From assembly GCF_029213205.1 (NCBI RefSeq), contig NZ_JARGNH010000026.1, positions 1 to 38,376 on the forward strand: 38,376 nt of DNA, in the 5' to 3' direction. Position numbers and translations under genes: made by a program. Below the pieces are notes generated by a model. The model was not told the origin of the DNA, made no database searches, and was given only the letters and a program-made list of their open reading frames with translations. Positions 15,093 through 31,054 of the stretch are shown in pieces. The stretch comes from Pseudooceanicola sp. GTDB lineage: Bacteria; Pseudomonadota; Alphaproteobacteria; Rhodobacterales; Rhodobacteraceae. Numbering within the stretch: the first letter of the stretch is position 1; each line of letters opens with the position of its first letter.

Positions 15093-15104
15093 TTTCATCT
15101 ATCC

Positions 15105-16169
15105 TCAGCGCGCCCAGGGATAGCCCTGAGTGTCACGGATCTGCGTGTATTTATCGAGCAGGGCCGTGTAGCTGTCGACGATCCCGTCCGCATCCAAACC
15201 GTCGGCGGCGCTTTCTTCTTTCCAGGCTTCGATGTAGGTTTTGCCGGCAGAGAAAAGCTCGTCACGGAACGCTTGCTGCATGTCGATCACCTGCACCTTG
15301 TTGCCTGCTTTCAGGCTGGCCACGACGTTGTCGATGTCGGTGATCTGAACCTCGGCGAAATGGTCGATCATTTCCACCGCGGCTTGCCGGATGATGTCGC
15401 GTTCCGCTTCGGTCAGCGAATTCCAGCGGTCCTGGTTGGCGATCACAGCGAACCCGGCGATCTGGCCAAAATCGATCCGGTACACCTTGCCGATCACTTC
15501 GTACAGTTTGTAGGCCTTGATCGTATAGAAATAGCCCGCTTCGCAATCGATCAGACCGGAGTCATAAGCCTGATATACCTCGTCATAGGAGAGGCTGATC
15601 AAGTTGACGCCAAGATCGGCCAGGATTTTCGCATAGATCCCGCTGGCCCGCATCTTGAGCCCGGCAAGATCCGCCAGCGTGTTGATCTCGATACCCTCGC
15701 GACAGTCGATCTGCACCGCCGTCGAGTGAAAGTTGGTGACATAGACGCTGTTTTGCTTTGCCAGCGAGTCTTTCAGCTGCTGGTTGGTTGTCATCAGGTC
15801 GTACATTGCCCGCATGCCAACCCAGGCATCCGAGGATTCATTGATCGGCAAGTCACCGATGGACAGCGCCTTCATCTGGTTCGGCGCATAGGCAGCAAGC
15901 ACCGTGCCGAGGTCCGCGACACCGTTCTTGACGCCATCAGCCGTTGCCTTGAAGCCCAGCAATGCGCCGCCCCAGATGATGTCGACCTTGATTTCACCAT
16001 TGGACAATTCGCCCACACGGTCGGCAAAAAACTGCACCGCATCCGCACGCGAGCCGCGATTGGGCCCGGATTCGTTATACCGCAGATAGGTTTCGGCGCT
16101 GGCCGCGCCAGCAAACCCCAGGGTCGCGACGGCAGCCAGGGCCGCGCATAGTTTCGATACGCCGTTCAT
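15105..16169 (-). CDS. dctP: TRAP transporter substrate-binding protein (DctP)
   Basis: Periplasmic protein that captures the substrate, usually a carboxylic acid, for DctQM. The 354-residue precursor has a Sec signal peptide (MNGVSKLCAALAAVATLGFA, cleavage after ASA at about residue 25). The mature part shows DctP features: the VGELSNGEIKVDIIWGG strand, IEINTLADLAGLKMRASG with the Arg that normally salts the substrate carboxylate, and LSYDEVYQAYDSGLIDCEAG. The ATG at 16169 has a strong GGAGGAG nine bases upstream. An upstream ATG at 16196 would place a basic leader before the signal peptide and is less likely. It is the first gene of the TRAP unit, divergent from the crotonase gene. Confidence 0.95.
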   Translation of the reverse strand: MNGVSKLCAALAAVATLGFAGAASAETYLRYNESGPNRGSRADAVQFFADRVGELSNGEIKVDIIWGGALLGFKATADGVKNGVADLGTVLAAYAPNQMKALSIGDLPINESSDAWVGMRAMYDLMTTNQQLKDSLAKQNSVYVTNFHSTAVQIDCREGIEINTLADLAGLKMRASGIYAKILADLGVNLISLSYDEVYQAYDSGLIDCEAGYFYTIKAYKLYEVIGKVYRIDFGQIAGFAVIANQDRWNSLTEAERDIIRQAAVEMIDHFAEVQITDIDNVVASLKAGNKVQVIDMQQAFRDELFSAGKTYIEAWKEESAADGLDADGIVDSYTALLDKYTQIRDTQGYPWAR

Positions 16170-16378
16170 TCTTCTCTTCTCCTCCACAGTTTTCATGATC
16201 GAGCGGTCGTGTCATTCGACCGGATCGCTGGGGGCATGAGCGGAATCGGATTGGGACTCGCAGCAATCGTATCCGCCCCCTCCGACAGCCCTCTCCCCGT
16301 CCGCGTCGCGGCAAACCGCACTGCGCCCTGATCGTCTCGTTCCGAGATGATTCATCTCCCGGTCGGAAGCTAATTCGC

Positions 16379-16407
16379 TTGTTATTACTTCGCAAGTGAA
16401 TTATACA
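16379..16407 (+). promoter_or_regulatory. Promoter of the crotonase / acyl-CoA ligase unit
   Basis: TTGTTA (16379-16384), 17 bases and TATACA (16402-16407) form a promoter whose transcript would begin near 16414, ahead of the GGGGAGG ribosome site of the crotonase gene. The shared palindrome (16384-16405) fills its spacer. Confidence 0.55.
16384..16405. promoter_or_regulatory. Palindromic operator, site A (TRAP / crotonase)
   Basis: The core ACTTCGCAAGTGAA is an inverted repeat (TTCGC / GTGAA around AA). It matches site B (28140-28161) at 18 of 22 positions, including an unbroken 11 bases, and site C (22749-22770) at 13 of 22. It lies across the promoters of both divergent units. I infer it is bound by the MarR-type regulator encoded at 18750-19259. 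Confidence 0.6.
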
Positions 16408-16428
16408 CATAGCGGTATATATTGTCTG
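16400..16428 (-). promoter_or_regulatory. Promoter of the TRAP operon
   Basis: On the minus strand CAGACA (16428-16423), a 17-base spacer and a perfect TATAAT (16405-16400) point toward dctP. The -10 element lies inside the palindromic operator. It overlaps the opposing crotonase promoter, so the two promoters face through each other. The leader to dctP would be about 220 bases; it contains a small GAGATG/CATCTC hairpin near 16344-16358. Confidence 0.55.
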
Positions 16429-16447
16429 TGATGCGGGGAGGCTCACT

Positions 16448-17227
16448 TTGCCGGAATTGATCGAACACAGCGCCGATGGCGTGCTGACTCTGACCCTCAA
16501 TCGCCCACGTCGGCACAACGCTCTGTCCCCTGAAATCAGGGTGCGTTTGCTTGAACTGTTGGTCGAAGAGCGCAACACCCTGCGCCACAGGGTGATTGTC
16601 GTGACCGGCGCCGGGGGCAGCTTCTGCTCGGGCGCCGATCTGGATTTGTCCGAGATCCTGCCGCGCCGGGCGACCATCGAAGGCACGATGAAGACCGGGA
16701 TCAACCAGATCGTCGCTTTGCTGCGTGAAATTCCGGTGCCGGTGATCGCGGCGGTGGATGGCGCTGCGGCTGGCGCGGGCTTCGGGCTGGCGCTTGCGGC
16801 AGATTTCATGGTGGTCTCGGAGCGGGCCAGGTTCCACTTGGCCTTCACGCGGATTGCCGCCAGCCCGGATGCCGGGGTGATGGCGCAATTGACCTACAAG
16901 ATCGGCGCCGCGCGCGCTGCATCCCTGGCGATGCTCGGCGAGACCCTGACAGCAGAGGATGCCGCGCAGCTTGGTTTCGCCTACAAGGTCACGGCGCCAG
17001 ACAAGCTGACTGCGGAAACCAACGCCCTGGCCGCACGGCTGGCGCAGGGGCCAACAGTGTCCTACGGAAATGTGAAACGGTTGGTGAATGCCCTGTGTCC
17101 TGCAGGCGACACGCGATATCTCGCGCTTGAGGCAGAATGCCAGGCCAAGGCTTTTGCAACGGCCGATTTCGAAGAGGGCGTAACCGCATTTTCAGAAAAA
17201 CGCACCGCCGTTTTTGAAGGCAAGTGA
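16448..17227 (+). CDS. Enoyl-CoA hydratase/isomerase (crotonase) family protein
   Basis: Acts on an acyl-CoA thioester, by hydration or double-bond isomerisation, in the cytoplasm. The 259-residue protein has the crotonase marks: LTLNRPRRHNALS (15-27), the first oxyanion segment CSGADL (60-65), and GAAAGAGFGLALAAD (105-119) holding the second oxyanion Gly. The catalytic region reads RIAASPDAGVM with Asp141 where many hydratases have Glu, as in PaaG-type isomerases, so isomerase activity is at least as likely as hydration. The start is a TTG at 16448, set by GGGGAGG six bases upstream. It is the first gene of a unit with the acyl-CoA ligase that follows 13 bases later, and a palindromic operator lies just upstream. 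Confidence 0.88.
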   Translation: MPELIEHSADGVLTLTLNRPRRHNALSPEIRVRLLELLVEERNTLRHRVIVVTGAGGSFCSGADLDLSEILPRRATIEGTMKTGINQIVALLREIPVPVIAAVDGAAAGAGFGLALAADFMVVSERARFHLAFTRIAASPDAGVMAQLTYKIGAARAASLAMLGETLTAEDAAQLGFAYKVTAPDKLTAETNALAARLAQGPTVSYGNVKRLVNALCPAGDTRYLALEAECQAKAFATADFEEGVTAFSEKRTAVFEGK

Positions 17228-17240
17228 AAGCAGTATAGTG

Positions 17241-18767
17241 ATGAATGGTCTTGTTGTTTGCGGGCAGGTCTCCCTGTCCCTTTCCGATTTGCGTGCCAGT
17301 GCTGGACAGGCGGCAAACGCTCTGATTGCCAATGGGGGCTCGGACGGACGGGTCGCGCTGTTGTTGCGCAACAGTATAGATTTTGTGGCCGCGAACGAAG
17401 CGGCGCGTTTGGCCGGGCTGGTTCCGGTGCCGATCAACTGGCATTTCAACGCCGCCGAGGTCGCCTATGTCCTGAACGACTGCGGGGCCGGTGCTCTAAT
17501 CGCGCATTCCGACCTCTTGAATGCCGCGGGTGAGGAATTGCTCAACCTTGTCTCGCCATCCCTGAAAATAATCTGGGTGCCAACCCCGTCTGACATGCAG
17601 GCATCGTTCGGTATTTCGGCCGAACAAGCCGAGCCGCCCGCGGGCGCCGAGACATGGGAGTCTCTTTGCGCTGCTGGCACGGGCCCCCTGCCCGCGCCCT
17701 CACAACCCGCCTTTCCGGTGATCTATACCTCGGGCACGACAGGCCATCCCAAAGGCGTGGTGCGCAAGGGGGCCGCAGCCACCCCCGGCACGCCCCAGGG
17801 CACCGACGCGTTCTTTACATCCCAGACCCGCACATTGCTGTCGGCACCGATGTATCATTCGGCCCCGAACCGTTTTGCGCAGCGCACGCTGTTGTTCGAT
17901 GGCACTCTTGTGCTGACCAGCAAATTCGACGCCGAGGAGACGCTGGCCCTGATCGAGCGTTGGAAGATCACCACCACCTTCCTTGTTCCCACAATGATGA
18001 GCCGCATCCTGCGCCTGCCGCAGGCGGTACTGGATCGCTACGATACCTCTTCGCTGCGCCATGTCGTGACCGCCGGGGCGCCCTGCCCGCCCGAGATCAA
18101 GCGCCGCTTGATCGAGCTCTGGGGCCCGGTGGTTTACGAATTCTACGGCGCGTCCGAGACCGGCGCCTTGACCCATTGCACCAGCGAGGATGCCTTGGCC
18201 CGGCCCGGCACCGTCGGACGCTGCCAGACGAATGCCCGGATCGCCATTCTCGACGAGCAGGGCCAACCCTGCCCGACCGGCACGTCGGGCGAAATCTATG
18301 GCGTGCGTGTGGATTATCCCGAATTCACCTATCTCAACCGTCCCGAAGAACGGGACAAGGTCGTGGTCGACGGGCTGATCACCGGCGGTGATATCGGCTA
18401 TCTGGACGCCGATGGCTATCTGTTCATCAATGATCGAAAACGCGACATGATCATTTCTGGCGGGGTGAATATCTATCCCGCCCATATCGAAGCGGCTATG
18501 CTGCAGCATGAAAAGGTTCTGGATTGCGCCGTGTTCGGCGTGCCGGACCAGGACCGTGGTGAACAGGTTGCCGTGGCCTATGAAACCACGCCCGACGATC
18601 CGGTCACCGAGGACGAACTCCGCACCCATATCGCCGGATTGATCGCGAAATACATGGTGCCGCGGCTCTATGTCAAAACCGACACGCTGCCCCGCGATCC
18701 ATCGGGCAAGATCCAGAAACGACGGCTGCGGGCCCCCTACTGGGAAGGCTCAGATAGCAATATCTGA
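17241..18767 (+). CDS. Acyl-CoA synthetase (AMP-forming)
   Basis: Activates a carboxylic acid to its CoA thioester through an acyl-adenylate. The 508-residue protein has the ATP-binding P-loop YTSGTTGHPKG (about 162-172), the YGASETG adenine motif, the GDIGYLDADGYLFINDRKRD hinge region and the catalytic Lys in DPSGKIQKRRLR at the end. I chose the ATG at 17241; a TTG at 17214 inside the crotonase gene is possible but neither has a good ribosome site. Length is normal for the class I family. Its substrate may be the acid imported by the neighbouring TRAP system. The 3' end overlaps the converging marR gene by 18 bases. Confidence 0.9.
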   Translation: MNGLVVCGQVSLSLSDLRASAGQAANALIANGGSDGRVALLLRNSIDFVAANEAARLAGLVPVPINWHFNAAEVAYVLNDCGAGALIAHSDLLNAAGEELLNLVSPSLKIIWVPTPSDMQASFGISAEQAEPPAGAETWESLCAAGTGPLPAPSQPAFPVIYTSGTTGHPKGVVRKGAAATPGTPQGTDAFFTSQTRTLLSAPMYHSAPNRFAQRTLLFDGTLVLTSKFDAEETLALIERWKITTTFLVPTMMSRILRLPQAVLDRYDTSSLRHVVTAGAPCPPEIKRRLIELWGPVVYEFYGASETGALTHCTSEDALARPGTVGRCQTNARIAILDEQGQPCPTGTSGEIYGVRVDYPEFTYLNRPEERDKVVVDGLITGGDIGYLDADGYLFINDRKRDMIISGGVNIYPAHIEAAMLQHEKVLDCAVFGVPDQDRGEQVAVAYETTPDDPVTEDELRTHIAGLIAKYMVPRLYVKTDTLPRDPSGKIQKRRLRAPYWEGSDSNI

Positions 18768-19259
18768 GTCTTTGCCGCCGATGGGGCGGGTGTTGAGCCA
18801 TTGGCTCGCGTCATCGGCATCAAGGGCTTCCGCCAAATTCCTGCGCACCCGTTCCATCAGGCTGAGCAATTTCTTTATCTCGTCTTTCGACAGGCCCTGA
18901 AACGATACGTCGTTGATTTCCTTGGCGATCCCGGACAGCAGCTCCTTGTTGGTGCGCGCTGATTCCTTGAGCCAGACCTTCTTGGCGCGCCGATCTGTCG
19001 GATCCTCGCCGCGATAGACCAGATTGGCCGCTTCAAGCCGGTCAACCATGCCGCTGACCGCGACGGTGCCGATGCTCAGCCGCTGGGCCAATTCCTTCTG
19101 GGTCATCCCATCCCGGTGCAACAGCCAGTTCAGCATAAAGACCTGCGCGGAAGTCAGGTGATAGGGGACCAAACGCTTGTCGGTCAGCCTGAGCCGTTGC
19201 CGCGCAACACGCTGGAAAATGAAACCGGGTTCCAGGTCTTGGATTTCGTGATCGTTCAT
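18750..19259 (-). CDS. MarR-family transcriptional regulator
   Basis: A 169-residue DNA-binding protein with a winged helix-turn-helix: LTSAQVFMLNWLLHRDG, MTQKELAQRLSIGTVAVSG (52-70, recognition helix) and the wing DPTDRRAKKVWL (86-97). Helices before and after form the dimer interface; length is typical. MarR proteins bind palindromes of about 20 bases and often release DNA on binding a ligand; several that control aromatic-acid catabolism respond to CoA thioesters. It is the last gene of the SDR-racemase-MmgE-MarR unit, overlaps the MmgE/PrpD gene by four bases (ATGA), and is the only regulator in the catabolic cluster. It is the natural candidate to bind the palindromes at 16384, 22749 and 28140 (inference). 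Confidence 0.92.
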   Translation of the reverse strand: MNDHEIQDLEPGFIFQRVARQRLRLTDKRLVPYHLTSAQVFMLNWLLHRDGMTQKELAQRLSIGTVAVSGMVDRLEAANLVYRGEDPTDRRAKKVWLKESARTNKELLSGIAKEINDVSFQGLSKDEIKKLLSLMERVRRNLAEALDADDASQWLNTRPIGGKDSDIAI

Positions 19260-20602
19260 AAGGACTCTGCCACCCCATCGATGAAAACAAGAGATTTTGC
19301 AATGTCGCGCGCGTCGCTTCCGCCGGCGCGGGTCAACTGGCCCCAGATTGTACCGGCACGTTCGCCGAGCATGGTCTGGGCCTTGTGAATGACGCGCCCC
19401 TCGATCTCGTCGATCGGGAATTGAGCCATCAGATCATGCTCTTGCGCAAATTCTGTGCCATCCGCGTAGGCCAGCGCGACCTTTGCCGCCGTGTCCGCAA
19501 CCGACGGGTCGGTCGCAACCCGAACTTTTTGGGCCAAGCCTTTCAATGAAATGTCGTTTGCCAAAGCATCGGTATACCGCATCGGCGATGATGTGGATAT
19601 GCCCGACAGCACCATGGCCGCGAGCCAGACATAACTGAACTTCACCTCAAGCCCGGTGCGCGGTTGTTTGATGTCGCAGACGTTCAACCACTTGGGATGG
19701 ACGGTGATGGTCACCGATTGGACCTCAGCGGCGTCGATTGAGCGATCGGCCTGCACTTTCAGCAACGCCTCGATCATCGCATGGGTGCCGTGACAACAGG
19801 CGTGCAGTTTATAGCGGATGTCGTCAAACAGGAACGGATTCGGTAGATCTGGCGCACCCGTGGCGGCGTCGGAATGGGTGGCAATGAACCCTTGCGCACC
19901 GCTGATGCCATCGTCCGCAGATGTCAGCCCAAGGGCGGCAAGCCGGGCGCATTCGATACCGTTGGCCGCTGCAATGCCGGCGTTCAGAGGCTTGCCCATG
20001 GTGCCGAACTGGTTCTTCAGCCCGCTCGCCCGTGTCGAGCAGAGCCCAAGCGCCGCGCGCATCTGGTCGCGGTTCAGCCCATACAACCGTCCGGCGGCGA
20101 CTGTCGCGCCAAAGGCGCCGGCGGTTGCGGTTTGGTGGAAGCCGCGCTCGTAATGCCCGGGCCCCAGTGCCAGTCCGACCCGGATCGCGCTTTCCGCCCC
20201 CAGCAAGAAGGCAGCGTGGACCTCTTTCATGCGGCCCCCAACCTCTTCGCCCGCGGCGAAGGCGGCAGGATAGATCCCGACCGACAGGTGACCGATATGG
20301 GCGAAATGGGTGTCGTCATAGTCCAGCGCGTGTGAAATCGTGCCGTTTGCCAGGGCGGCGGCACGGGCGGGCGCCCGGCCACCGCCGAATGTGCTGGCAG
20401 TGGCACGGCCGCCCTCCTCTTCGACAAATCTCAGCAGCTTTTGCGTGACAGGTTCGTCAGCCGCGGCAAGGCCGCACACCATCCAATCAAAGAACGAAAG
20501 CCGGGCCAGGCGCATCGACTCCGACGGCAGCGTTTCATGCGGCCGTTGGGCCAGATCCAGCAGGGTGTCGATCAGATCCACGTCGTAACGCCTTTCCTTC
20601 AT
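19256..20602 (-). CDS. MmgE/PrpD family protein
   Basis: A 448-residue member of the family that includes 2-methylcitrate dehydratase, cis-aconitate decarboxylase and iminodisuccinate epimerase. Visible marks are ALDYDDTHFAHIGHLSVGIYPAA (about 100-120), with the conserved DYDDTH, the GYHQTATAG-like region (GFHQTATAG), KPLNAGIAAANGIECARLA, and YKLHACCHGTHAMIEAL. The reaction cannot be told from sequence: in this cluster it may hydrate or dehydrate a product of side-chain cleavage, for example a C3 or methyl-branched unit. It lies between the racemase and marR genes and overlaps the latter by four bases. The ribosome site at its ATG is weak. Confidence 0.9.
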   Translation of the reverse strand: MKERRYDVDLIDTLLDLAQRPHETLPSESMRLARLSFFDWMVCGLAAADEPVTQKLLRFVEEEGGRATASTFGGGRAPARAAALANGTISHALDYDDTHFAHIGHLSVGIYPAAFAAGEEVGGRMKEVHAAFLLGAESAIRVGLALGPGHYERGFHQTATAGAFGATVAAGRLYGLNRDQMRAALGLCSTRASGLKNQFGTMGKPLNAGIAAANGIECARLAALGLTSADDGISGAQGFIATHSDAATGAPDLPNPFLFDDIRYKLHACCHGTHAMIEALLKVQADRSIDAAEVQSVTITVHPKWLNVCDIKQPRTGLEVKFSYVWLAAMVLSGISTSSPMRYTDALANDISLKGLAQKVRVATDPSVADTAAKVALAYADGTEFAQEHDLMAQFPIDEIEGRVIHKAQTMLGERAGTIWGQLTRAGGSDARDIAKSLVFIDGVAESL

Positions 20603-20626
20603 GGCCCGGGATTACCCCCAGGTGGT

Positions 20627-21766
20627 TCAATTGGCGTTGCCCTGCGCCGCCTCGATCTGCGTGCCATCCAGCCCGATCGACGTCAGGATCGCCTCGGTAT
20701 CGGCCCCAGGCACCGGCGCGGGGTTCGGCAATGGCGTGCTGGCCTGGGTAAACCGGGGCGCGGGCATCGGTTGCAACGGCCCCTCGCTGCTGAACACCTG
20801 ACGCTCGGCATTGTGCGGATAGATCGCCGCTTCGGCGGGGCTGAGAACCGGGGCAAAACAGGCATCCGTTCCGCCCAGCAGCCCGATCCAATGATCGCGG
20901 GTTTGGCTGCGAATGATAGCGCTCAGGGTTTGGCGTAACGCGGGCCAGGTGGCGGGGTCGTTCCGGTCGCCGGCCTGTTCCGGCGGGATCGCCAGAAGCT
21001 CCAGCACCTGTGCCCAGAACTGCGGTTCAACCGCGGCAATGGTGATCCATTCGCCATCGGCGCAGGGATAGACCCCATACCATGGCACGCCGCCGTCCAG
21101 CAGATTGCTCTGACGCGCATCGCGCCATTGTCCCTTGGCCCGCCGACTGGCGGTCATCGCCATCAGCGCGGCGGTGCCGTCGCAGATCGCAGCATCCACC
21201 ACGTCGCCAACACCGGTGCGGCCAACGCGGATCAGCGCTGCCAGCATTCCATAGGCAAGGAACATCCCGCCGCCGCCGAAATCGCCCAGCAGGTTCATCG
21301 CAAAGGCCGGAGGCCGATCCGCGCAACCACTGGACCAAAGGGCGCCCGTGATCGCGATGTAATTCAGGTCGTGGCCGGCGGAATGAGACAGGGCACCGTT
21401 TTGCCCCCAACCCGTCATCCGCCCGTAGACCAGCGCCGGATTTCGAGCCATGGCCGGGTCCGGGCCGAGGCCCAGCCGCTCCATCACGCCGGGGCGGAAG
21501 CCTTCGATCAAGCCATCAGAGGTCGCGATCAGCTGCAAGGCAGCCTCGACCCCGGCTGGGCGTTTCAGATCCAGGGTGACGGATTTCCGCCCGCGCGCCA
21601 GAAAATCAAGATGTGGCTGTTCGACTTTGGCACCCGGTCGATCGACACGGATGATTTCAGCGCCCATGTCGGCCAGCATCATCCCGGCAAACGGGCCTGG
21701 GCCGATTCCGGCAAATTCGACGATGCGCAGCCCCGCGAGGGGGGCTGCCTTGGTTTCATCGGTCAT
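20627..21766 (-). CDS. Alpha-methylacyl-CoA racemase (CaiB/BaiF family III CoA transferase fold)
   Basis: Predicted to interconvert (2R)- and (2S)-methylacyl-CoA, which is needed before the alpha-methyl-branched chain can be dehydrogenated. The 379-residue protein starts with the family pattern LAGLRIVEFAGIGPGPFAGMMLAD. The three catalytic residues of the Mycobacterium tuberculosis racemase MCR (His126, Asp156, Glu241) line up at a constant offset of six with His132 (SAGHDLNY), Asp162 (LLGDFGGGG) and Glu247 (AAVEPQFW) here. That makes racemase far more likely than CoA transfer. The ATG at 21766 has GAGG upstream. It lies 27 bases after the SDR gene and 24 bases before the MmgE/PrpD gene, in one unit. 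Confidence 0.9.
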   Translation of the reverse strand: MTDETKAAPLAGLRIVEFAGIGPGPFAGMMLADMGAEIIRVDRPGAKVEQPHLDFLARGRKSVTLDLKRPAGVEAALQLIATSDGLIEGFRPGVMERLGLGPDPAMARNPALVYGRMTGWGQNGALSHSAGHDLNYIAITGALWSSGCADRPPAFAMNLLGDFGGGGMFLAYGMLAALIRVGRTGVGDVVDAAICDGTAALMAMTASRRAKGQWRDARQSNLLDGGVPWYGVYPCADGEWITIAAVEPQFWAQVLELLAIPPEQAGDRNDPATWPALRQTLSAIIRSQTRDHWIGLLGGTDACFAPVLSPAEAAIYPHNAERQVFSSEGPLQPMPAPRFTQASTPLPNPAPVPGADTEAILTSIGLDGTQIEAAQGNAN

Positions 21767-21793
21767 TATGTGACCTCATTGCTGCGTCCGCGC

Positions 21794-22696
21794 TCAGACG
21801 GGATCCCAGGTAAAGATGTCGCCGGACCGTTCCAGTTCGTAGAAGTCCGATTTCATCGCGGGCAGCGCGTGTTCCTTGACTTTCTGCGGCGTCCAGCCCT
21901 CGGACCGATGTGCAGAACGGATCGGGCGCGGTTGGCTGAACAAGAAGATCTCGTTGTTGCGCACCCCGAAAATCTGCCCGGTCACGTCGCATTCCGGATC
22001 TGCCAGAGCCACGCAAAGCGGTGCGATCTTGGCCGGTGTCATATCCTTGATTCGCTCGACCCGCGCCTTTTCGGCCTCGGTTTTCGCCGGGATCGTGCCG
22101 ATCAGCCGCGACCATGCAAACGGAGCGATACAGTTCGACCGCACATTGAACCGTGCCATGTCCAGCGCCAGAGATTTCGACAGCCCGACGATGCCCAGCT
22201 TGGCCGCCGCATAGTTCGCCTGGCCAAAGTTCCCGATCAGGCCCGACGTCGAAGTGAAGTTGATGAAACACCCCGAGGCCTGCATCTTGAACTGCGCCGC
22301 CACGGCGCTGGCCATGTTGAAGCTGCCTTTGAGGTGGACCGCGATCACAGAATCCCAGTCTTCTTCGGTCATCTTGTGAAAGATCACGTCGCGCAGGATG
22401 CCGGCATTATTGACCACAACGTCAATCGCGCCGAATTCATCCATCGCCTGCTGGTACATGGCCTTGGCGTCCTCGGACTTGGCAACATTGCCAAAGTTGG
22501 CAACCGCTTCGCCACCGGCGGCCTTGATCTCGTTCACGACCTCCTGGGCGGGCGTTGCATCGGATCCGGCGCCATCAGCCGCGCCACCAAGATCGTTCAC
22601 CACGACCCGGCCGCCATTCGCCGCCATCATCAGGGCAAGATCGCGCCCGATTCCACGACCGGCTCCGGTCACAACCACTACTTTTCCGTCAAGCAT
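21794..22696 (-). CDS. SDR oxidoreductase, MFE-2-like (3R)-hydroxyacyl-CoA dehydrogenase
   Basis: A 300-residue short-chain dehydrogenase with TGAGRGIG (10-17) for NAD(P), NNAG (96-99), the catalytic Ser near 149-151 and Tyr162-x3-Lys166. The opening VVVTGAGRGIGRDLALMMA, VVVNDLGG and the long insertion GAGSDATPAQEVVNEIKAAGG are typical of the dehydrogenase part of peroxisomal multifunctional enzyme 2 (17beta-HSD type 4), which oxidises (3R)-hydroxyacyl-CoA. The C-terminal 45 residues are extra to the SDR core, as in that group. I chose the ATG at 22696 because GAGGAG lies six bases upstream. It is the first gene of a four-gene unit and diverges from the acyl-CoA dehydrogenase. Confidence 0.88.
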   Translation of the reverse strand: MLDGKVVVVTGAGRGIGRDLALMMAANGGRVVVNDLGGAADGAGSDATPAQEVVNEIKAAGGEAVANFGNVAKSEDAKAMYQQAMDEFGAIDVVVNNAGILRDVIFHKMTEEDWDSVIAVHLKGSFNMASAVAAQFKMQASGCFINFTSTSGLIGNFGQANYAAAKLGIVGLSKSLALDMARFNVRSNCIAPFAWSRLIGTIPAKTEAEKARVERIKDMTPAKIAPLCVALADPECDVTGQIFGVRNNEIFLFSQPRPIRSAHRSEGWTPQKVKEHALPAMKSDFYELERSGDIFTWDPV

Positions 22697-22747
22697 CAAG
22701 TTCTCCTCGTTTTCTCTCGATGGTGAAGTCAAATTCAATTAACCTGT

Positions 22748-22777
22748 GTATTATTCGTATGAGAATGGTATAGGCAA
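22748..22777 (-). promoter_or_regulatory. Promoter of the SDR-racemase-MmgE-MarR unit with operator site C
   Basis: On the minus strand TTGCCT (22777-22772), an 18-base spacer and TAATAC (22753-22748) point toward the SDR gene. The spacer holds a palindrome-like site (22749-22770, core TTCGTATGAGAA) that fits the pattern of the sites at 16384 and 28140 at the TTCG, central A and G, and GAA positions (14 of 22 bases shared with the latter). I infer regulation, including autoregulation, by the MarR product. The plus-strand promoter for the acyl-CoA dehydrogenase must lie in the same 130 bases but is not clear. Confidence 0.5.
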
Positions 22778-22828
22778 GTGGCCGTCGCCACAAGGCGTCA
22801 TGAAATCGTGCAACGGGGGAGCAAACCG

Positions 22829-23980
22829 ATGTTCAAACGCACCATATTTTCCGAAGACCATGAGATGTTTCGCGCGCAGGTGCGACGATTCATCGAGACC
22901 GAAATCATGCCGCATCACGCCCAATGGGAAAAGGACGGCCGGGTCAGCCGCGAGACCTGGCTGAAAGCCGGTGAACAGGGCTTGCTCTGCGCAACCGTCC
23001 CGGAAGAGTTCGGCGGAGCGGGCGCGGATTTCCTGTTTTCGATGGTGGTGATAGAGGAACTCGCCCGCGTGGGGGCCATGGGGCCGGGATTTTCCCTGCA
23101 TTCTGACATCGTGGCCCCCTATCTGATGCATTACGGCACCGAGGCGCAAAAACGCGATTGGCTGCCCCGGATGGTGCGCGGAGAGATGATCGGCGCGATT
23201 GCCATGACCGAGCCCGTCGCCGGGTCCGACGTTCAGGGAATCAAGACGACAGCCGTGCGTGACGGCGATGAGTATGTGATCAACGGCCAGAAGGTCTTTA
23301 TCACCAACGGCGGCAATTGCGATCTGCTGATCCTTGCCTGCAAGACAGACCCGAGCAAGGGTGCCAAGGGCATCAGCCTGATCCTCGTGCCTGCCGCCAC
23401 GCCTGGATTCCGCAAGGGGAAGCTGCTGGAAAAGGTCGGCTGGAAGGCGCAGGACACCGCCGAACTGTTCTTTGACGACGTCCGTGTTCCCGCCAGCAAC
23501 CTGCTGGGGGTGGAAAACCGCGGCTTCTATCAGCTGATGGAACAACTGCCGCAAGAACGCCTGATGCAGGCCGTCCGCGCCACCTCGATCCTTGAGGCGG
23601 CTCTGGACTGGACCGTCGAATACACCAGCGAACGCAAGGCGTTCGGCGGCACGATTTCAGATTTCCAGAACACGCGGTTCCGCCTTGCAGAGGTCAGAAG
23701 CCAGGCGGTCGTGATGCGGGTCTTCACCGATCACTGCATGCAGATGCATACGCAGGGCGACCTTGATTCCGTCGATGCGGCAATCGCCAAGATGTTCACC
23801 GCCGAGTCCCTGTGCAAAAGCCTGGACGAATGTCTGCAATTGTTTGGTGGCTACGGTTACATGTGGGAATATCCGATCGCACGCGCATGGGCCGATGCCC
23901 GGATGTCGCGGATTGCCGGCGGCACCGGCGAAATCATGCGCGAGATCATCGGGCGGCAGGTGCTCGGAGGGCAGCGATGA
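22829..23980 (+). CDS. Acyl-CoA dehydrogenase
   Basis: FAD enzyme that introduces the alpha-beta double bond into an acyl-CoA. The 383-residue protein has the three ACAD parts: helical N-domain, beta domain with AIAMTEPVAGSDVQGIKT (124-140) and GQKVFITNGG (153-162), and the C-domain with SERKAFGGTISDFQN and a GGTGEIMREIIGR end. The base at the usual MCAD position (before GT) is Gly here; Glu243, in the LPQERL helix, is where long-chain and isovaleryl-type enzymes have their catalytic Glu. That suggests a long or branched substrate. The ATG at 22829 has GGGGGAG upstream. The stop overlaps the next gene's ATG (ATGA). Confidence 0.93.
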   Translation: MFKRTIFSEDHEMFRAQVRRFIETEIMPHHAQWEKDGRVSRETWLKAGEQGLLCATVPEEFGGAGADFLFSMVVIEELARVGAMGPGFSLHSDIVAPYLMHYGTEAQKRDWLPRMVRGEMIGAIAMTEPVAGSDVQGIKTTAVRDGDEYVINGQKVFITNGGNCDLLILACKTDPSKGAKGISLILVPAATPGFRKGKLLEKVGWKAQDTAELFFDDVRVPASNLLGVENRGFYQLMEQLPQERLMQAVRATSILEAALDWTVEYTSERKAFGGTISDFQNTRFRLAEVRSQAVVMRVFTDHCMQMHTQGDLDSVDAAIAKMFTAESLCKSLDECLQLFGGYGYMWEYPIARAWADARMSRIAGGTGEIMREIIGRQVLGGQR

Positions 23981-25557
23981 TTCGCTTTCCCGATTTCATT
24001 CGAAAGAACGCGTTCCATCGACCCGATGCCAAGGCGCTGCATTTCGAGGGGCACGATTACACCTGGTCGCAGTTCAGCGACCGGGTGCATTGCATGGCGC
24101 AGGCCCTGCGGGATCTGGGCGTCGAGCCAGGGGATCGTGTCGCCTACCTGGGCCACAACTCCGGCTGGATGGTCGAGATGTATTTCGTGCCCTCGCTGAT
24201 TGGCGCGCTGTTCGTCCCGATGAACTTTCGCCTGTCCGAGGCAGAAATGGTCGAGATGCTGGCCGACTGCACCCCCGAGATTCTGATCGTCGACCGCCAT
24301 CATGGCGATCGCGGGGCGCAGCTTATGGCGCTCTGCCCCTCGCTGAAACATTTGATCCATGCGGATTGGGACGGGCCAGCGCCCTCCCTGCCGCCGTCGA
24401 CATTGAACTACGAAACCCTGGCATCCGAAACCGCGCGCCCCGAGGACGACGCCTTCGATGCGATTGCCAGCGATTCAACCGATACGAAGGTGCTGTTCTA
24501 TACGTCGGGCACCACCGGCCAACCCAAGGGCGTGATGCTGTCGCATCTGAACATGATGACCAATTCCCTCGGGACCGGTTCGATCATGGAGTTTGGCCCC
24601 GAGGATGTTGTGATGTTGTCCGGGCCTCTGTTCCACCTTGGCACCGGATCGCGGATTTATACCGCCGCCTATTATGGCGCCACGATGATCGTGCAATCGC
24701 GGTTCGAAGTGATAGAGGCCGCCGCATTGATCAAGGCGCATCGTGTCACCTCGATGACGCTGGTGCCGACCATGCTGCGTATGGTCCTCGACCACCCGGA
24801 TTTCGGCACATTCGATTTCTCGTCGATGCGGTTGCTGACATATGGGGCGGCGCCGATGCCCCTGCCCCTGATGGAGCGCGCCCTGGCCGCCATCCCCGGC
24901 GTTACCTTCTGTCAGAGCTACGGCATGACCGAGGCCTCGCCCGCGCTGACCCTGCTGCCGCCCGCCGATCATGTTCCCGGAAATCCGCGGATCGACAAGC
25001 TGGGCTCGGTCGGGCTTCCGCTGCCGCATAGCGACATTCGCATCGTCGATGAAAGCGGCGCCACCCTACCACCGCTTGAACCCGGTGAGATCGTCGCGCG
25101 CGGATCACAGATCATGAACGGGTACTGGGGCCGCGATGCCGAAACCGCAGAGGCGATGCGCGGGGGCTTCTATCACACCGGCGATGCGGGCTATCTGGAT
25201 CATGACGGTTATCTCTTTCTGGTCGGACGCACCAAAGAGATGATCATCTCGGGGGGTGAAAACGTCTATCCGATCGAGACCGAGAATTGCCTGTCCCGGC
25301 ATCCCGCCGTGGCCCAGGCCGCCGTCATCGGTCTGCCGCACGAGAAATGGGGCGAGACGGTGCATGCGGTTGTCGCCTTGCATCCCGGCCAGACCGTCAC
25401 CACCGACGAGCTGATCGCCTTCTGCCGCGAGCATATTGCCCATTACAAGGCCCCGCGCGGCGTGACGTTCTGGGATGGTGCCCTGCCGCTTTCAGCGACG
25501 AACAAGATCGACAAGACCGCGATCAAGACGCAATTGCTGGCCGAAGTTCGCGCCTGA
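23977..25557 (+). CDS. Acyl-CoA synthetase (AMP-forming), second copy
   Basis: Acid:CoA ligase of 526 residues. The P-loop is YTSGTTGQPKG (175-185), followed by YGMTEASPAL, the TGDAGYLDHDGYLFLVGRTKEMIISGG hinge (shown in parts: GDAGYLDHDG and GRTKEM) and the catalytic Lys in LPLSATNKIDKTAIK near the end. It is full length and of the FadD3/FadK-like medium or branched-acid type rather than acetate type, though the substrate cannot be read from sequence. GGAGG precedes the ATG at 23977, which overlaps the acyl-CoA dehydrogenase stop. It differs clearly from the ligase at 17241, so the cluster has two ligases, perhaps for two acids or two stages of one pathway. Confidence 0.92.
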   Translation: MIRFPDFIRKNAFHRPDAKALHFEGHDYTWSQFSDRVHCMAQALRDLGVEPGDRVAYLGHNSGWMVEMYFVPSLIGALFVPMNFRLSEAEMVEMLADCTPEILIVDRHHGDRGAQLMALCPSLKHLIHADWDGPAPSLPPSTLNYETLASETARPEDDAFDAIASDSTDTKVLFYTSGTTGQPKGVMLSHLNMMTNSLGTGSIMEFGPEDVVMLSGPLFHLGTGSRIYTAAYYGATMIVQSRFEVIEAAALIKAHRVTSMTLVPTMLRMVLDHPDFGTFDFSSMRLLTYGAAPMPLPLMERALAAIPGVTFCQSYGMTEASPALTLLPPADHVPGNPRIDKLGSVGLPLPHSDIRIVDESGATLPPLEPGEIVARGSQIMNGYWGRDAETAEAMRGGFYHTGDAGYLDHDGYLFLVGRTKEMIISGGENVYPIETENCLSRHPAVAQAAVIGLPHEKWGETVHAVVALHPGQTVTTDELIAFCREHIAHYKAPRGVTFWDGALPLSATNKIDKTAIKTQLLAEVRA

Positions 25558-25564
25558 CCCGACG

Positions 25565-25597
25565 CCCGCTACGTTGCGGCATCCCGCTACGTTGCGG
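25565..25597. repeat. Two direct copies of a 15-base sequence
   Basis: CCCGCTACGTTGCGG occurs at 25565-25579 and again at 25583-25597, with an 18-base period and no mismatch. It lies just after the stop of the second acyl-CoA ligase and before the terminator. The purpose is unknown. Confidence 0.85.
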
Positions 25598-25606
25598 TAT
25601 TCAATA

Positions 25607-25646
25607 AAACAAGGCGCGCGCCAGCTGGCACGCGCCTTGTTTGTTT
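25607..25646. terminator. Bidirectional terminator between converging genes
   Basis: AAACAAGGCGCG (25607-25618) and CGCGCCTTGTTT (25631-25642) are a perfect 12-base-pair stem around a 12-base loop. A T-rich tail follows on the plus strand (TTTGTTT) and A-rich bases lead on the other side, so it can stop both the acyl-CoA ligase transcript and the converging thiolase transcript. Confidence 0.9.
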
Positions 25647-25661
25647 AGCTCAGGTGGCAGA

Positions 25662-26807
25662 TTACCACGCATCCTCGGTTGTCATCACAACGGTTGCTGC
25701 GGCTGAGAACATGCCGCCCACCCCATGCACCACCGACAGCTTCGCACCGTCGACCTGCGCCGGAGAGATGCCGCGCATCTGGCGCACCGCCTCTTGCAGC
25801 GCGTACATGCCATACATGCCCGAATGCATATAGCTGAGCCCGCCGCCATTGGTGTTCAGCGGCAGCTTGCCACCCGGGCGGGTGTTGCCCTCGGCGATAA
25901 AGGCACCGCCCTCGCCCTTGCCGACAAAGCCCAGATCCTCGAGCCCATAAACCGGCAGATGCGCGAATGCGTCATAGATCATCAGGTGATCGACATCCGC
26001 ATGGCTGATCCCAGCCGTCTCGAACGCGGTCTTGCCCGACACCCGGAATGCCTTGGAGCTGGTGAAATCCGCCATCTGCGAAATCATCGGCCCCTCGGCG
26101 CTTTCGCCACCCAGGCCGCGCAGATACACCGGCTTGGTCGGGAAATCCTTGGCGCGCTCGGCACTGGTCAGGATCAGCGCGCCGCCACCGTCTGACACCA
26201 GACAGCACATCAGCTTGCGGAACGGCCAGGCGATCATCTTGGAGTTCAGAACATCATCCACGGTGATCGGATCGCGCGCGGTGGCGCGGGGATGGAACGC
26301 CGCCCATTCGCGCTGCACCACCGCAACCATGGCCAGCTGTTCGATGGTCAGCCCGTCATCCTTCATCTTGCGCATGACCGGCAGGGTAAAGCGCGAAGGC
26401 GGCACCATCGGGCCATAGATCGCCTCGAATTCCTGTTGCTGCATCGAGGGAAAGATTGGCCGGTGCGCGCGGTTGTTCGACCGCCCGCTTTCGCCATGGG
26501 TGATCAGCACGGTGGTGCACAGCCCCTGGGCGATGGCCGCGGCCGCATGGCGCACCAGCGTGATGAACGAACAGCCGCCAACCGAAGTGCCGTCGTACCA
26601 TGTCGGGGTGATGCCGAGGTATTGCGCGATCTCGGCCACGTCATGCCCGCCGGTGGCAATGCCGTCAATATCGGCCGGGGTCAGGCCGCAATCCGCCATG
26701 GCATTCAACGCCGCATCGGCATGCAGACCAGTCTGGCTCAGTTCGGGAACCTTGCCCATGCGGGTGGTTTCAGCGGCGCCAACAATAGCGATTTGGGCAT
26801 GGGTCAT
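25662..26807 (-). CDS. Thiolase-fold protein (SCPx thiolase / Ltp2-type aldolase group)
   Basis: A 381-residue thiolase-superfamily protein acting on acyl-CoA cleavage. The family plan is present (VGAAETTRMG at the start, VSDGGGALILTS at 204-214, IYDAFAHLPVYGLEDLGF at 277-294) but the classical motifs are changed. The N-C-x-T/S-G nucleophile motif is replaced by TSVGGCSF (74-81), with Cys79 one position off the expected place. GHPxG is SYMHSG (325-330). The C-terminal Cys-Gly motif is HGVGG (361-365). Such changes, plus the DUF35 partner next to it, recall the steroid side-chain aldolase Ltp2, which makes no thiolytic cut. Thiolase or retro-aldolase cannot be settled here. AAAGGAGG precedes the ATG, which overlaps the DUF35 gene by four bases. 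Confidence 0.88.
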   Translation of the reverse strand: MTHAQIAIVGAAETTRMGKVPELSQTGLHADAALNAMADCGLTPADIDGIATGGHDVAEIAQYLGITPTWYDGTSVGGCSFITLVRHAAAAIAQGLCTTVLITHGESGRSNNRAHRPIFPSMQQQEFEAIYGPMVPPSRFTLPVMRKMKDDGLTIEQLAMVAVVQREWAAFHPRATARDPITVDDVLNSKMIAWPFRKLMCCLVSDGGGALILTSAERAKDFPTKPVYLRGLGGESAEGPMISQMADFTSSKAFRVSGKTAFETAGISHADVDHLMIYDAFAHLPVYGLEDLGFVGKGEGGAFIAEGNTRPGGKLPLNTNGGGLSYMHSGMYGMYALQEAVRQMRGISPAQVDGAKLSVVHGVGGMFSAAATVVMTTEDAW

Positions 26808-27214
26808 GCGGCACCTCCTTTGGCGGGACGGAATTGCGGAACGGCGACGTCTCCGCGTTGTTCAAAGGTCAGTTCAAGCGGCATGTCGAGGTCAAGCGAC
26901 TCCGGGTCTGCCGGGCAATCGACGATATTGGTCATCATCTTGACCCCTTCCTCAAGCATCACCTCGGCGATGGTAAAGGGCGGCTCATACCCCGGCGCGG
27001 CAAGGTGCGAGATCACGAAGGAATGCAACGTGCCCTTGCCCGAGGCCTGGGTGACGGCGATATCCCGGCTGCCACAGGTCGGGCAGAACGGGCGCGGCGG
27101 GTAATAGATCTTGTCGCAAGCGTTACAGGACTGCAGCAACAGTTTGCCGGCCTTGGCCCCGTCCCAGTAGAACTGCGTTTCAGGATAGATCGTTGGTAGC
27201 TGGCGTTCACTCAT
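26804..27214 (-). CDS. DUF35 OB-fold zinc-ribbon protein (acyl-CoA binding partner)
   Basis: A 136-residue protein with an N-terminal helix, a rubredoxin-like zinc ribbon with Cys30, Cys33, Cys44 and Cys47 (CNACDKIYYPPRPFCPTC), and a C-terminal OB fold (about 60-130, GKGTLHSFVISH onward). Standalone DUF35 proteins pair with thiolase-like proteins; in steroid catabolism the DUF35 part of ChsH2 binds Ltp2 and supports its aldolase action. Here the gene lies between maoC and the thiolase-fold gene and overlaps the latter by four bases, so a complex of the products is likely (inference from the family). GGGGGA lies upstream of the ATG at 27214. Confidence 0.9.
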   Translation of the reverse strand: MSERQLPTIYPETQFYWDGAKAGKLLLQSCNACDKIYYPPRPFCPTCGSRDIAVTQASGKGTLHSFVISHLAAPGYEPPFTIAEVMLEEGVKMMTNIVDCPADPESLDLDMPLELTFEQRGDVAVPQFRPAKGGAA

Positions 27215-27228
27215 TTACGTTTTCCCCC

Positions 27229-28089
27229 TCAGCCCAAACGGGCCAGTCCGTTGTTCAATACAACAATGTCGCGTTCCAGCACGCGGGCGCGGAACGACAC
27301 TTCATCGCCGTCGCGCCACATCTCGGTGCGGATGGTTTCCCCAGGATAGACCGGGGAGGAGAACCGCAATTGAAGGTGCTTCAACGCAGAGGCGTCGCCA
27401 TCGGCGAAGGCCGCCGTGATCGACCACGACGCAATGCCGAGTGTGCAGAGCCCGTGCAGGATGGGGCGCTCGAACCCGGCGCCGCGCGCCACCTCAGGGT
27501 CGGCATGCAGCGGATTGTAATCCCCGTTCAGGCGATAGGTCAGCGCCAGTCCTGGCGCGGTCTTGTGATCAAAGACCACCTCAGGTTCGCCTTCGGGCAT
27601 CTTGTGAACGGGTTTCACTGGCCCGGTCGGCCCGCCGAAGCCGCCATTGCCACGGGCAAAGCTGGTGCCTGCCACTGTCGCGATCAGCGTGCCGGTCGCC
27701 TTGTCGGTCAGGCTGCGTTCGGAATAGATCAGCGCGCCCTTGTCGGCGCCCTTGTCGATCAGCCCGGTGATCTTGGTCTCGCCGACAATGGTGCCCGAGG
27801 TCGGCAGCGGCGCGTGCAGGGTGAAACTTTGTTCACCATGCAGGATTTTTTGCCAGACCAGCCCGGTATCTGGCTCCATCGCCCAGAACCCCGGCCCTGC
27901 CAGCACATTCACCATCGCGGGCAATGCGCAGAACCCTGGGTCCCGTTCATAGGTCGCCTTCAGATGTGCCTTGTCCAGCGGGTCTGCGCCAAGCCCGAGC
28001 CCCAGCGCGTACAGGATGGTGTCGCGTTCGGTATAGCTTTGCTCGACTGGCGCGAATTCCCGCGCCATCAGGGTGTCGTAGCTGATCAT
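27229..28089 (-). CDS. MaoC-type (R)-specific enoyl-CoA hydratase (double hot-dog)
   Basis: A 286-residue protein of the hydratase-2 type found in peroxisomal multifunctional enzyme 2. The C-terminal hot-dog has the catalytic motif NGDYNPLHADPE with Asp190 and His195, followed by ERPILHGLCTLG (207-218). The N-terminal half is a second, non-catalytic hot-dog that binds the long acyl chain. It would add water to a trans-2-enoyl-CoA to give the (3R)-hydroxyacyl-CoA, the substrate type of the SDR in this cluster. I chose the ATG at 28089, which has GAGGGA six bases upstream; the ATG at 28113 lacks a site. It is the first gene of maoC-DUF35-thiolase. Confidence 0.92.
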   Translation of the reverse strand: MISYDTLMAREFAPVEQSYTERDTILYALGLGLGADPLDKAHLKATYERDPGFCALPAMVNVLAGPGFWAMEPDTGLVWQKILHGEQSFTLHAPLPTSGTIVGETKITGLIDKGADKGALIYSERSLTDKATGTLIATVAGTSFARGNGGFGGPTGPVKPVHKMPEGEPEVVFDHKTAPGLALTYRLNGDYNPLHADPEVARGAGFERPILHGLCTLGIASWSITAAFADGDASALKHLQLRFSSPVYPGETIRTEMWRDGDEVSFRARVLERDIVVLNNGLARLG

Positions 28090-28122
28090 GATTGGTCCCT
28101 CAGTTTGTCTCACTGGTTCAAT

Positions 28123-28161
28123 GTCATAATTTCGACAGGTATACTTCGCAAGCGAAATATA
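28123..28161 (-). promoter_or_regulatory. Promoter of the maoC-DUF35-thiolase unit with operator site B
   Basis: On the minus strand TTGCGA (28151-28146), a 17-base spacer and TATGAC (28128-28123) form a promoter about 30 bases before the maoC start. The palindrome at 28140-28161 (core ACTTCGCAAGCGAA, flanked by TATA on both sides; one mismatched pair) covers the -35 element. It is the most symmetric of the three related sites. Confidence 0.6.
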
Positions 28162-28379
28162 CTTATATGAACTGTATCCGCGTTGCGGTGCTGCGAACAG
28201 AGAACGGGCAGATCGATCAGGTGACGGTGCCGGCCCCGGATCACCGGGATCCGGTCACGGCGGCAAGACCGACCAGTGACGGCTTTGCGCCCGCATCGAC
28301 ACATGCGCCTGTGCCTGTCAGTTCCCGCCGGATTGCGCGCGGGGAAAGACGACATGCCGGGCTTGATGCAACAATACGC
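28162..28379. other. Intergenic stretch between the catabolic cluster and the nar operon
   Basis: These 218 bases hold no gene I can support. A nested inverted repeat (GTGAC at 28221 to GTCAC at 28257, with an inner CCGGATC/GATCCGG stem at 28236-28254) could fold in the transcript that runs off the end of the nar operon, but no T run follows it. Confidence 0.4.
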
Positions 28380-28913: not shown

Positions 28914-28928
28914 CTGCGCTCCTGCAAA

Positions 28929-29501: not shown

Positions 29502-29513
29502 ACATCCTCCGCA

Positions 29514-30311: not shown

Positions 30312-30314
30312 GAT

Positions 30315-31043: not shown

Positions 31044-31054
31044 CGGATCCTCCT

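Follow-up and report, generated by a model that had tools for sequence, protein, structure and literature searches.

The DNA analysed here is a 38,376-nucleotide stretch of Pseudooceanicola sp. (contig NZ_JARGNH010000026.1 of assembly GCF_029213205.1), referred to below as the window. It carries a catabolic gene cluster with a MarR-family regulator gene, and three of the cluster's intergenic regions contain the same DNA element: two overlapping 22-bp (base pair) palindromes set 15 bp apart, which together form a 37-bp double palindrome. These three sites are very probably operators of the cluster's own SlyA-like MarR (18750-19259), which would bind each of them as two dimers and repress uptake and coenzyme A (CoA)-dependent catabolic genes until released by a CoA thioester. 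The sites themselves are read directly from the DNA; we infer MarR binding, the presence of two dimers per operator, repression and the ligand.

Paired palindromes at three promoter regions

The operators are as follows (no strand is assigned to them; SDR, short-chain dehydrogenase).

16369..16405, no strand: operator A, a double palindrome flanked by dctP (leftward) and the enoyl-CoA hydratase gene (rightward)
22734..22770, no strand: operator C, a double palindrome flanked by the SDR gene (leftward, heading the marR unit) and by the acyl-CoA dehydrogenase gene (rightward)
28140..28176, no strand: operator B, a double palindrome ahead of the MaoC-ChsH2-like-Ltp2-like unit, which is read leftward

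Operator A is made up of copies at 16369-16390 and 16384-16405 (15 bp apart), operator C of copies at 22734-22755 and 22749-22770, and operator B of copies at 28140-28161 (18 of 22 bases self-complementary) and 28155-28176. One copy of each had been proposed in a sequence-only reading of this DNA, and these are present where it placed them: ATTACTTCGCAAGTGAATTATA at 16384, TATTATTCGTATGAGAATGGTA at 22749 and TATACTTCGCAAGCGAAATATA at 28140. By deduction, its sites A and B are those at 16384 and 28140 and its site C is that at 22749. The agreement of 18 of 22 bases that it described is found between 16384 and 28140, which have the stretch TACTTCGCAAG in common, and 22749 agrees with the other two at 13 and 14 of 22 bases, also as proposed. 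The description of each site as a 22-base near-palindrome is accurate for 28140 when compared with its own reverse complement (18/22), but not for 16384 (12/22) or 22749 (14/22).

The sequence-only reading did not include the partner copies, which lie 15 bp off at all three sites (16369, 22734 and 28155). Because this second copy is found at each site, the operator is better described as a 37-bp double palindrome; two overlapping palindromes at a fixed spacing are seen at 3/3 operators in the window. Copies were scored with a leave-window-out matrix, composed of sites from four other genomes without any window site, although these had initially been picked by likeness to the 28140 site. The better and second copies score 27.4 and 16.4 at A, 26.2 and 15.4 at B, and 21.6 and 21.5 at C. 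Site C had been considered the weaker one; with both copies counted it is not weak, and as a pair it matches A and B. The consensus for each palindrome copy is TATAATTCGCWWGCGAATTATA, and the operators have a G+C content of 30-32%, compared with 62% for the window. A spacing of 15 bp corresponds to approximately 1.4 helical turns of B-DNA, so neighbouring dimers would sit on nearly opposite faces of the DNA.

Pattern counts from this genome do not single the element out; genome-wide figures here and below rest on pattern scans, with the matches to the double-site and 22-base patterns then scored with the matrix. The bare pattern TTCG-N-A-N-G-N-GAA, offered earlier as evidence, proves to be non-specific (14 places in the 3.69-Mb genome, versus 12 for a reversed control), and the 22-base form with up to three mismatches is rarer than its control (50 versus 94 places). 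The site at 28140 is the sole match in the genome to the 22-base pattern with no mismatches. On these counts the window by itself is not proof; the related genomes supply it. Taken by themselves, these counts would suit the view that the similarity of the sites is due to chance or mere promoter AT-richness. Against this view, the three proposed sites rank highest among single sites in the window under the leave-window-out matrix (27.4, 26.2 and 21.6), with their partners next, and as pairs A scores 43.8 (the best in the window), C 43.2 and B 41.7, the next non-overlapping place being at -1.2. When each of the three regions was shuffled with its dinucleotides preserved, 0/5000 shuffles reached the observed score, either singly or paired, and the best pair in 60 shuffles of the whole window scored 21.3.

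Since the matrix sites had been picked by likeness to 28140, the test was repeated with a motif derived de novo from sequence outside the window. This palindromic motif search used 12 gaps of four other genomes and no window sequence; in this run and a second one described below, the analyst decided on the 22-base width, on a palindromic motif and on where each gap ended, and two gaps, those preceding marR in L044 and L045, were delimited with the sites already known. The resulting motif, TATAATTCGCATGCGAATTATA, agrees in consensus with the leave-window-out matrix. It ranks the three window pairs at the top (A 42.1, B 39.4, C 38.3; next non-overlapping place 1.7) and, in its own 12 gaps, gives 42.0 at a spacing of 15 bp versus at most 22.2 for the 12 other spacings tried. 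With the shuffles, this recovery without the window, the 15-bp pairing in held-out genomes and the conservation of the operator as a block (both below), chance or AT-richness is already refuted at the sequence level, and we give it practically no weight.

The double palindrome beside related marR genes

MarR orthologs are found in Pseudooceanicola pacificus (two copies, 79% identity), Aquicoccus porphyridii (79%), an uncultured Shimia metagenome-assembled genome (MAG; 59% over the best segment) and Mameliella sediminis (57%), and relatives of the window enzymes adjoin the ortholog in each of these four genomes. A comparison with related genomes had been suggested as a check, and it finds the motif kept at the corresponding promoters in all four. 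These are gaps of divergent genes, e.g. SDR/acyl-CoA dehydrogenase or hydratase/TRAP (tripartite ATP-independent periplasmic transporter). In the SDR/dehydrogenase gap of three genomes (window, P. pacificus and Aquicoccus), the best-conserved block is operator C. One motif is present at all promoter regions of the cluster and is kept beside orthologous marR clusters, with some held-out relatives lacking it. The earlier proposal that one local MarR acts at all three promoter regions is supported by the motif in these four genomes, by 15-bp pairing beside distant MarRs and by the joint change of recognition helix and half-site.

Two of these genomes show further features. The P. pacificus cluster (L042:3927-10480) is flanked by two marR copies, and only short pieces of it (46, 68 and 26 residues) match ligase 1, the CaiB-type gene product and the dehydrogenase, which would fit a rearrangement or partial loss of the cluster. 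The Shimia MAG has three palindromes rather than the usual two upstream of marR, in tandem at 15-bp steps (9797, 9812 and 9827; L044:9797-9848).

The 15-bp spacing recurs across genomes. Among the first five, 15 bp is the best offset (range 12-40) at 13/14 chosen operators and the second best at the 14th; the mean core score of these 14 operators is +8.6 at 15 bp versus -5.2 to -15.1 at 28 other spacings, where only core columns were scored and, at 15 bp, two outer columns are common with the first site. These operators were chosen after the pairs had been noticed, a fault from which the held-out and de novo runs are free. Held-out sites, from loci around further MarR relatives and scored with the same matrix, have 15 bp as the best offset at 16/28 in a first set (19 loci scanned, 16 with a site) and at 6/14 in a second (11 loci scanned, 8 with a site). 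The total of 22/42 compares with a chance expectation of approximately 1.4 (2/58 offsets per site; binomial tail 1.8e-21), L077 being excluded from these counts as it lies on the same contig as L044. The cluster-bearing loci of the second set (L114, L117 and L124) have 15 bp as the best offset at 5/6 sites and the second best at the sixth; L115 and L118 to L123, which are without this gene set or have another, have it at no site. Many cluster MarRs of more distant relationship also have the double arrangement next to their genes. When the de novo search was run again, on 22 gaps from the loci of such distant MarRs, it yielded AATAATTAGCTAGCTAATTATT, with a score of 45.5 at 15 bp versus at most 21.7 at 12 other spacings.

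It is conceivable that each operator takes a single MarR dimer, at whichever 22-bp copy is the better, and that the other copy is a decaying or auxiliary half-operator of little effect. The lower scores of the second copies at A (16.4 versus 27.4) and B (15.4 versus 26.2) are consistent with this, as are single sites beside the MarR relatives in L081 and L090, but the two copies at C score alike (21.6 and 21.5), and the 15-bp partner persists across two MarR subfamilies and 19 genomes although the sequence around it has changed strongly (some of the operators being identical or closely related). We regard this single-dimer arrangement as unlikely. In a side observation, the L081 cluster (TRAP, SDR, MaoC, CaiB and a MarR relative) has strong single palindromes (34.4, 26.5 and 23.3; 3549-3683 and 13629-13650) without a 15-bp partner.

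The assignment of the three sites to the window MarR is tied to the protein by its recognition helix. This helix reads GTVAVSGM, and many held-out cluster MarRs (32-37% identity) carry ATVTTSKL or ATVTISKL instead. (L085 was excluded from the MarR alignment A2, having a stop codon in its MarR stretch.) Clusters with the latter, K-type helix, ATVT(T/I)SKL, keep the 15-bp pairing, but their half-site is mostly TTAGC instead of TTCGC. Base 3 of the half-site is C in 47/64 cases with helix GTV(A/G)VSGM versus 0/88 with ATVT(T/I)SKL, a count whose significance is not to be taken literally: the 16 and 22 operators behind it were selected by eye and share descent, one Shimia palindrome enters it twice, through two pairs that overlap, and the K-type operators of some genomes are identical. 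The value of 0/88 was obtained despite a site-finding matrix that favoured C, and for the K-type set the second de novo run gives AATAATTAGCTAGCTAATTATT. The two groups leave out L080, L086, L088, L089, L094 and L116, which are listed apart; L081 and L116, with SGL helices, have TTCGC sites too. As helix and half-site change together, the MarR is tied to the sites, and this co-change is the best evidence from sequence alone that this MarR reads them.

A broader and more tentative proposal, to which we give somewhat less than even weight, is that a fixed operator code for double dimers, with SlyA-type palindromes in twos or sometimes threes at 15-bp steps, serves the cluster MarRs of marine Rhodobacteraceae, and that these proteins have diverged within it into two specificities without cross-reaction, TTCGC and TTAGC, via a few helix changes (window MarR positions 64, 67, 68, 70 and 71). 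If this is true, related clusters could be wired separately through TTCGC and TTAGC. Seven loci (L084, L087, L091, L092, L093, L095 and L096) have a common gene set of SDR-MarR-CaiB, dehydrogenase-ligase and ChsH2-Ltp2. Their Ltp2-like proteins are 88-91% identical to that of the window, versus 34-37% for their MarRs, and this far better conservation suggests a common pathway with exchanged regulators.

Elsewhere in the genome, the pattern scans show one further site that resembles the operators. The double-site pattern with up to two mismatches matches 16 places, three of them in the window; a site on contig C49 scores 29.3, the window operators 29.2, 27.5 and 23.0, and the rest at most 14.4. 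The same four places are the highest of the 50 single 22-base places scored (27.4, 26.2, 21.6 and 16.0; next 7.2). This fourth 15-bp double site (C49:33494-33530, equal to L097:8495-8531) overlaps the start codon of a second marR, near a moaE gene, and the encoded MarR (C49:33029-33505) has 32% identity to the window MarR over 98 residues. The window sites could in principle be operators of another MarR such as this one, or of both proteins, with the targets of the local marR lying elsewhere. Consistent with this are the double site of the same kind at the C49 gene (35.8 with the leave-window-out matrix) and a palindrome, related by eye, near the start of some relatives of the C49 MarR (L126, L127 and L128; a weak pair in L129). 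Given these relatives, the C49 site is most simply that gene's own operator. Moreover, no C49-type MarR was found at E <= 1e-20 in eight Pseudooceanicola genomes (G020 [66% complete], G004, G006, G007, G014, G015, G018 and G019) that do carry double operators beside their local marR, and the half-site letter follows the helix of the cluster's own MarR. Control of the window sites by another MarR such as the C49 protein, or by both proteins, is thus improbable, with perhaps a chance in ten left to it. Two other kinds of candidate were set aside: C15:87515, identical to the core of A, has no partner (-1.9) and its flanks are not AT-rich, and L098 and L099, around two other pattern matches, contain no credible double site.

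Gene cluster and proposed regulation

The genes that adjoin the operators, with those behind them, are listed below (start positions as discussed in the text).

18750..19259, minus strand: MarR-family regulator (Pfam MarR_2 1.3e-14, MarR 1.5e-13), last gene of the SDR-CaiB-MmgE/PrpD-MarR unit behind operator C
15105..16196, minus strand: DctP, TRAP substrate-binding protein (NCBIfam TRAP_S1 7.7e-21), first gene left of operator A
14568..15098, minus strand: DctQ, TRAP small membrane subunit (Pfam DctQ 4.5e-14)
13159..14502, minus strand: DctM, TRAP large membrane subunit (Pfam DctM 4.3e-84)
16448..17227, plus strand: enoyl-CoA hydratase/isomerase family protein (Pfam ECH_1 9.7e-53), first gene right of operator A
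17214..18767, plus strand: acyl-CoA ligase 1 (Pfam AMP-binding 2.2e-64)
21794..22696, minus strand: short-chain dehydrogenase, SDR (Pfam adh_short 1.9e-43), first gene left of operator C
20627..21766, minus strand: CoA-transferase family III, CaiB type, previously called a racemase (Pfam CoA_transf_3 1.9e-79)
19256..20602, minus strand: MmgE/PrpD family protein (Pfam MmgE_PrpD_N 4.6e-50)
22829..23980, plus strand: acyl-CoA dehydrogenase (Pfam Acyl-CoA_dh_1 3.2e-41), first gene right of operator C
23812..25557, plus strand: acyl-CoA ligase 2 (Pfam AMP-binding 7e-84)
25662..26807, minus strand: thiolase-fold protein, Ltp2-like (steroid side-chain aldolase), previously called the cleavage enzyme (Pfam Thiolase_C_1 1.1e-57)
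26804..27214, minus strand: ChsH2-type zinc-ribbon/OB-fold partner protein (Pfam OB_ChsH2_C 6.2e-16, zf-ChsH2 1.7e-15)
27229..28089, minus strand: MaoC/MFE-2-type hydratase (Pfam MaoC_dehydratas 7.8e-26), first gene left of operator B

The MarR domain is above the family cut-offs (MarR_2 54.5 bits, cut-off 27; MarR 50.8 bits, cut-off 24.6). No second DNA-binding regulator was found among the genes scanned between 13159 and 28113, which agrees with the earlier description of this protein as the only regulator in the block; its gene does lie in the unit behind site C, with SDR, CaiB-type CoA-transferase, MmgE/PrpD and MarR genes left of the operator. Three start codons differ from those of the mechanical open reading frames (ORFs). 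The SDR gene is read from the ATG at 22696, the mechanical start at 22738 falling inside operator C; the dehydrogenase gene from the ATG at 22829 (mechanical ORF 22778), the Aquicoccus match beginning at ORF residue 18; and the MaoC gene from the ATG at 28089 (mechanical ORF 28113), the P. pacificus and Aquicoccus matches beginning at ORF residue 9. The coordinates of acyl-CoA ligase 2 are those of its mechanical ORF, the start of which overlaps the dehydrogenase gene. The distances from operator edge to gene start are approximately 43 bp for the hydratase, 38 for SDR, 59 for the dehydrogenase, 51 for MaoC and 173 for dctP.

The Ltp2-like protein matches PDB entries 6ok1 (lipid-transfer protein, 8e-46) and 4u4e (thiolase, 9.1e-114). 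The trio of MaoC, ChsH2-like and Ltp2-like proteins resembles steroid side-chain hydratase/aldolase sets such as Shy and Sal, as these are presented in excerpts of PMC11321319 and PMC12329534. By this likeness, the substrate might reasonably be guessed to be a branched or steroid-like side chain.

On either side of the cluster are genes of other kinds. The first 12 kb, with ten ORFs scanned, look unlinked (PhoU, ABC ATPase, histidine kinase, GTP1/OBG GTPase and amino-acid kinase with PUA). Adjoining operator B, positions 28380-33303 carry DUF2478, hemerythrin and PpiC-type genes and genes for the gamma, delta and beta subunits of respiratory nitrate reductase, which seem to have no connection with the regulon.

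A consensus scan finds leftward sigma-70-like promoters overlapping the sites at 16400-16428 (A) and 22750-22777 (C). In the model that we favour, each operator would hold two MarR dimers side by side, placed on almost opposite sides of the double helix. As long as substrate is lacking, they would mask the leftward -10 matches of A and C and the stretch that separates the divergent genes there, shutting off TRAP uptake, the two acyl-CoA ligases, the hydratases, dehydrogenases and CoA-transferase, and the Ltp2/ChsH2-like aldolase unit. The marR gene, being in the unit behind operator C, would itself also be repressed. By analogy with CouR, MarR is probably released by a CoA thioester that one of the ligases produces.

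Several observations weigh against this model. The same consensus scan finds nothing resembling a promoter at operator B or ahead of the rightward genes, and the earlier placement of every site on or between -35 and -10 elements stands for the leftward promoters at A and C but is not borne out at 28140 or for the rightward genes. The pairing has exceptions among the held-out loci. In the first set another offset is best at 12/28 sites: 15 bp is second best at all three in L080, best at 0/3 in L081 and 0/2 in L090, and best at none in L079, and no site above threshold was found in L078, L082 or L085. In the second set another offset is best at 8/14 sites, L116 has 15 bp as the best at only 1/4, and at L117:740 the offset is best with a negative partner score (-1.3). 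L078 and L079, which have SGL helices, show no clear TTCGC operator in the loci scanned. Finally, the C49 MarR may, to judge from its site, read much the same motif, in which case there could be cross-talk with the window cluster.

The direction of control is a further point, as SlyA can activate by antagonising H-NS (in the part of PMC5797941 that deals with it), and repression by the window MarR is for this reason not certain. The MarR might activate its genes or counteract a silencer, as enterobacterial SlyA can, instead of repressing them. The half-site of the sister subfamily is that of SlyA (same source, in part), and operators of 30-32% G+C in a 62% window also suit such a role. Conversely, A and C overlap leftward -10 matches, all three operators are 38-59 bp from the nearer gene starts, and the catabolic MarRs described in the excerpted text of PMC5487221 repress. 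Activation therefore seems rather unlikely to us, and repression by the cluster's MarR remains the favoured reading.

Comparison with known systems

No description of this regulator was found among the listed titles and abstract openings of a limited literature collection. The nearest model for the operator is that of SlyA, the consensus of which is given as TTAGCAAGCTAA in an excerpt of PMC5797941. Each palindrome copy has the same layout with a 12-base core (TTnGCnnGCnAA), TTAGC is the commonest outer half-site in the sister subfamily of cluster MarRs, and SlyA structure entries match the MarR alignment (3q5f, 5.2e-17). The two systems differ in that base 3 is mostly C, not A, in the subfamily of the window, and in that the sites here are 15-bp pairs at one gene cluster, whereas the SlyA regulon is scattered. 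At 50.4 bits, the window MarR falls under the 120-bit cut-off of the SlyA equivalog model NCBIfam NF002926, and the SlyA-type core is not found in the window, where the best cores are TTCGCAAGCGAA and TTCGCAAGTGAA.

CouR, HcaR, FerC and similar proteins are likewise MarR regulators over a catabolic pathway that begins with CoA activation; they respond to CoA thioesters, and CouR is released by the CoA thioester of the substrate, according to parts of PMC4737184 and PMC5487221. Here, by contrast, the pathway is of an acyl side-chain type (CaiB, Ltp2/ChsH2-like, MaoC, TRAP) rather than for hydroxycinnamate, and the operator is paired at 15 bp. For two dimers on one element there is precedent within the family: one operator of MepR reportedly takes up a pair of dimers, bound to opposing faces of the helix. 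In the TetR family, two QacR dimers bind opposite sides of one promoter element with base pairs in common, as outlined in a portion of PMC6018408; QacR belongs to another family, and the arrangement here has a 15-bp spacing, recurs in many genomes and is known from sequence.

What had been an anonymous marR gene and three odd sequences is now a regulon whose limits are defined and which can be put to the test, and the question of two dimers can be addressed directly through the 15-bp spacing. The 37-bp double palindrome is a practical signature for genes of this side-chain catabolic pathway in marine Rhodobacteraceae, and the TTCGC and TTAGC subfamilies, with few helix changes between them, are a natural experiment in the change of MarR DNA specificity. 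Set beside the known systems, this is an ordinary kind of regulon and not a new type of system, distinguished by a double operator that is unusually strict and well conserved and by a clear specificity split.

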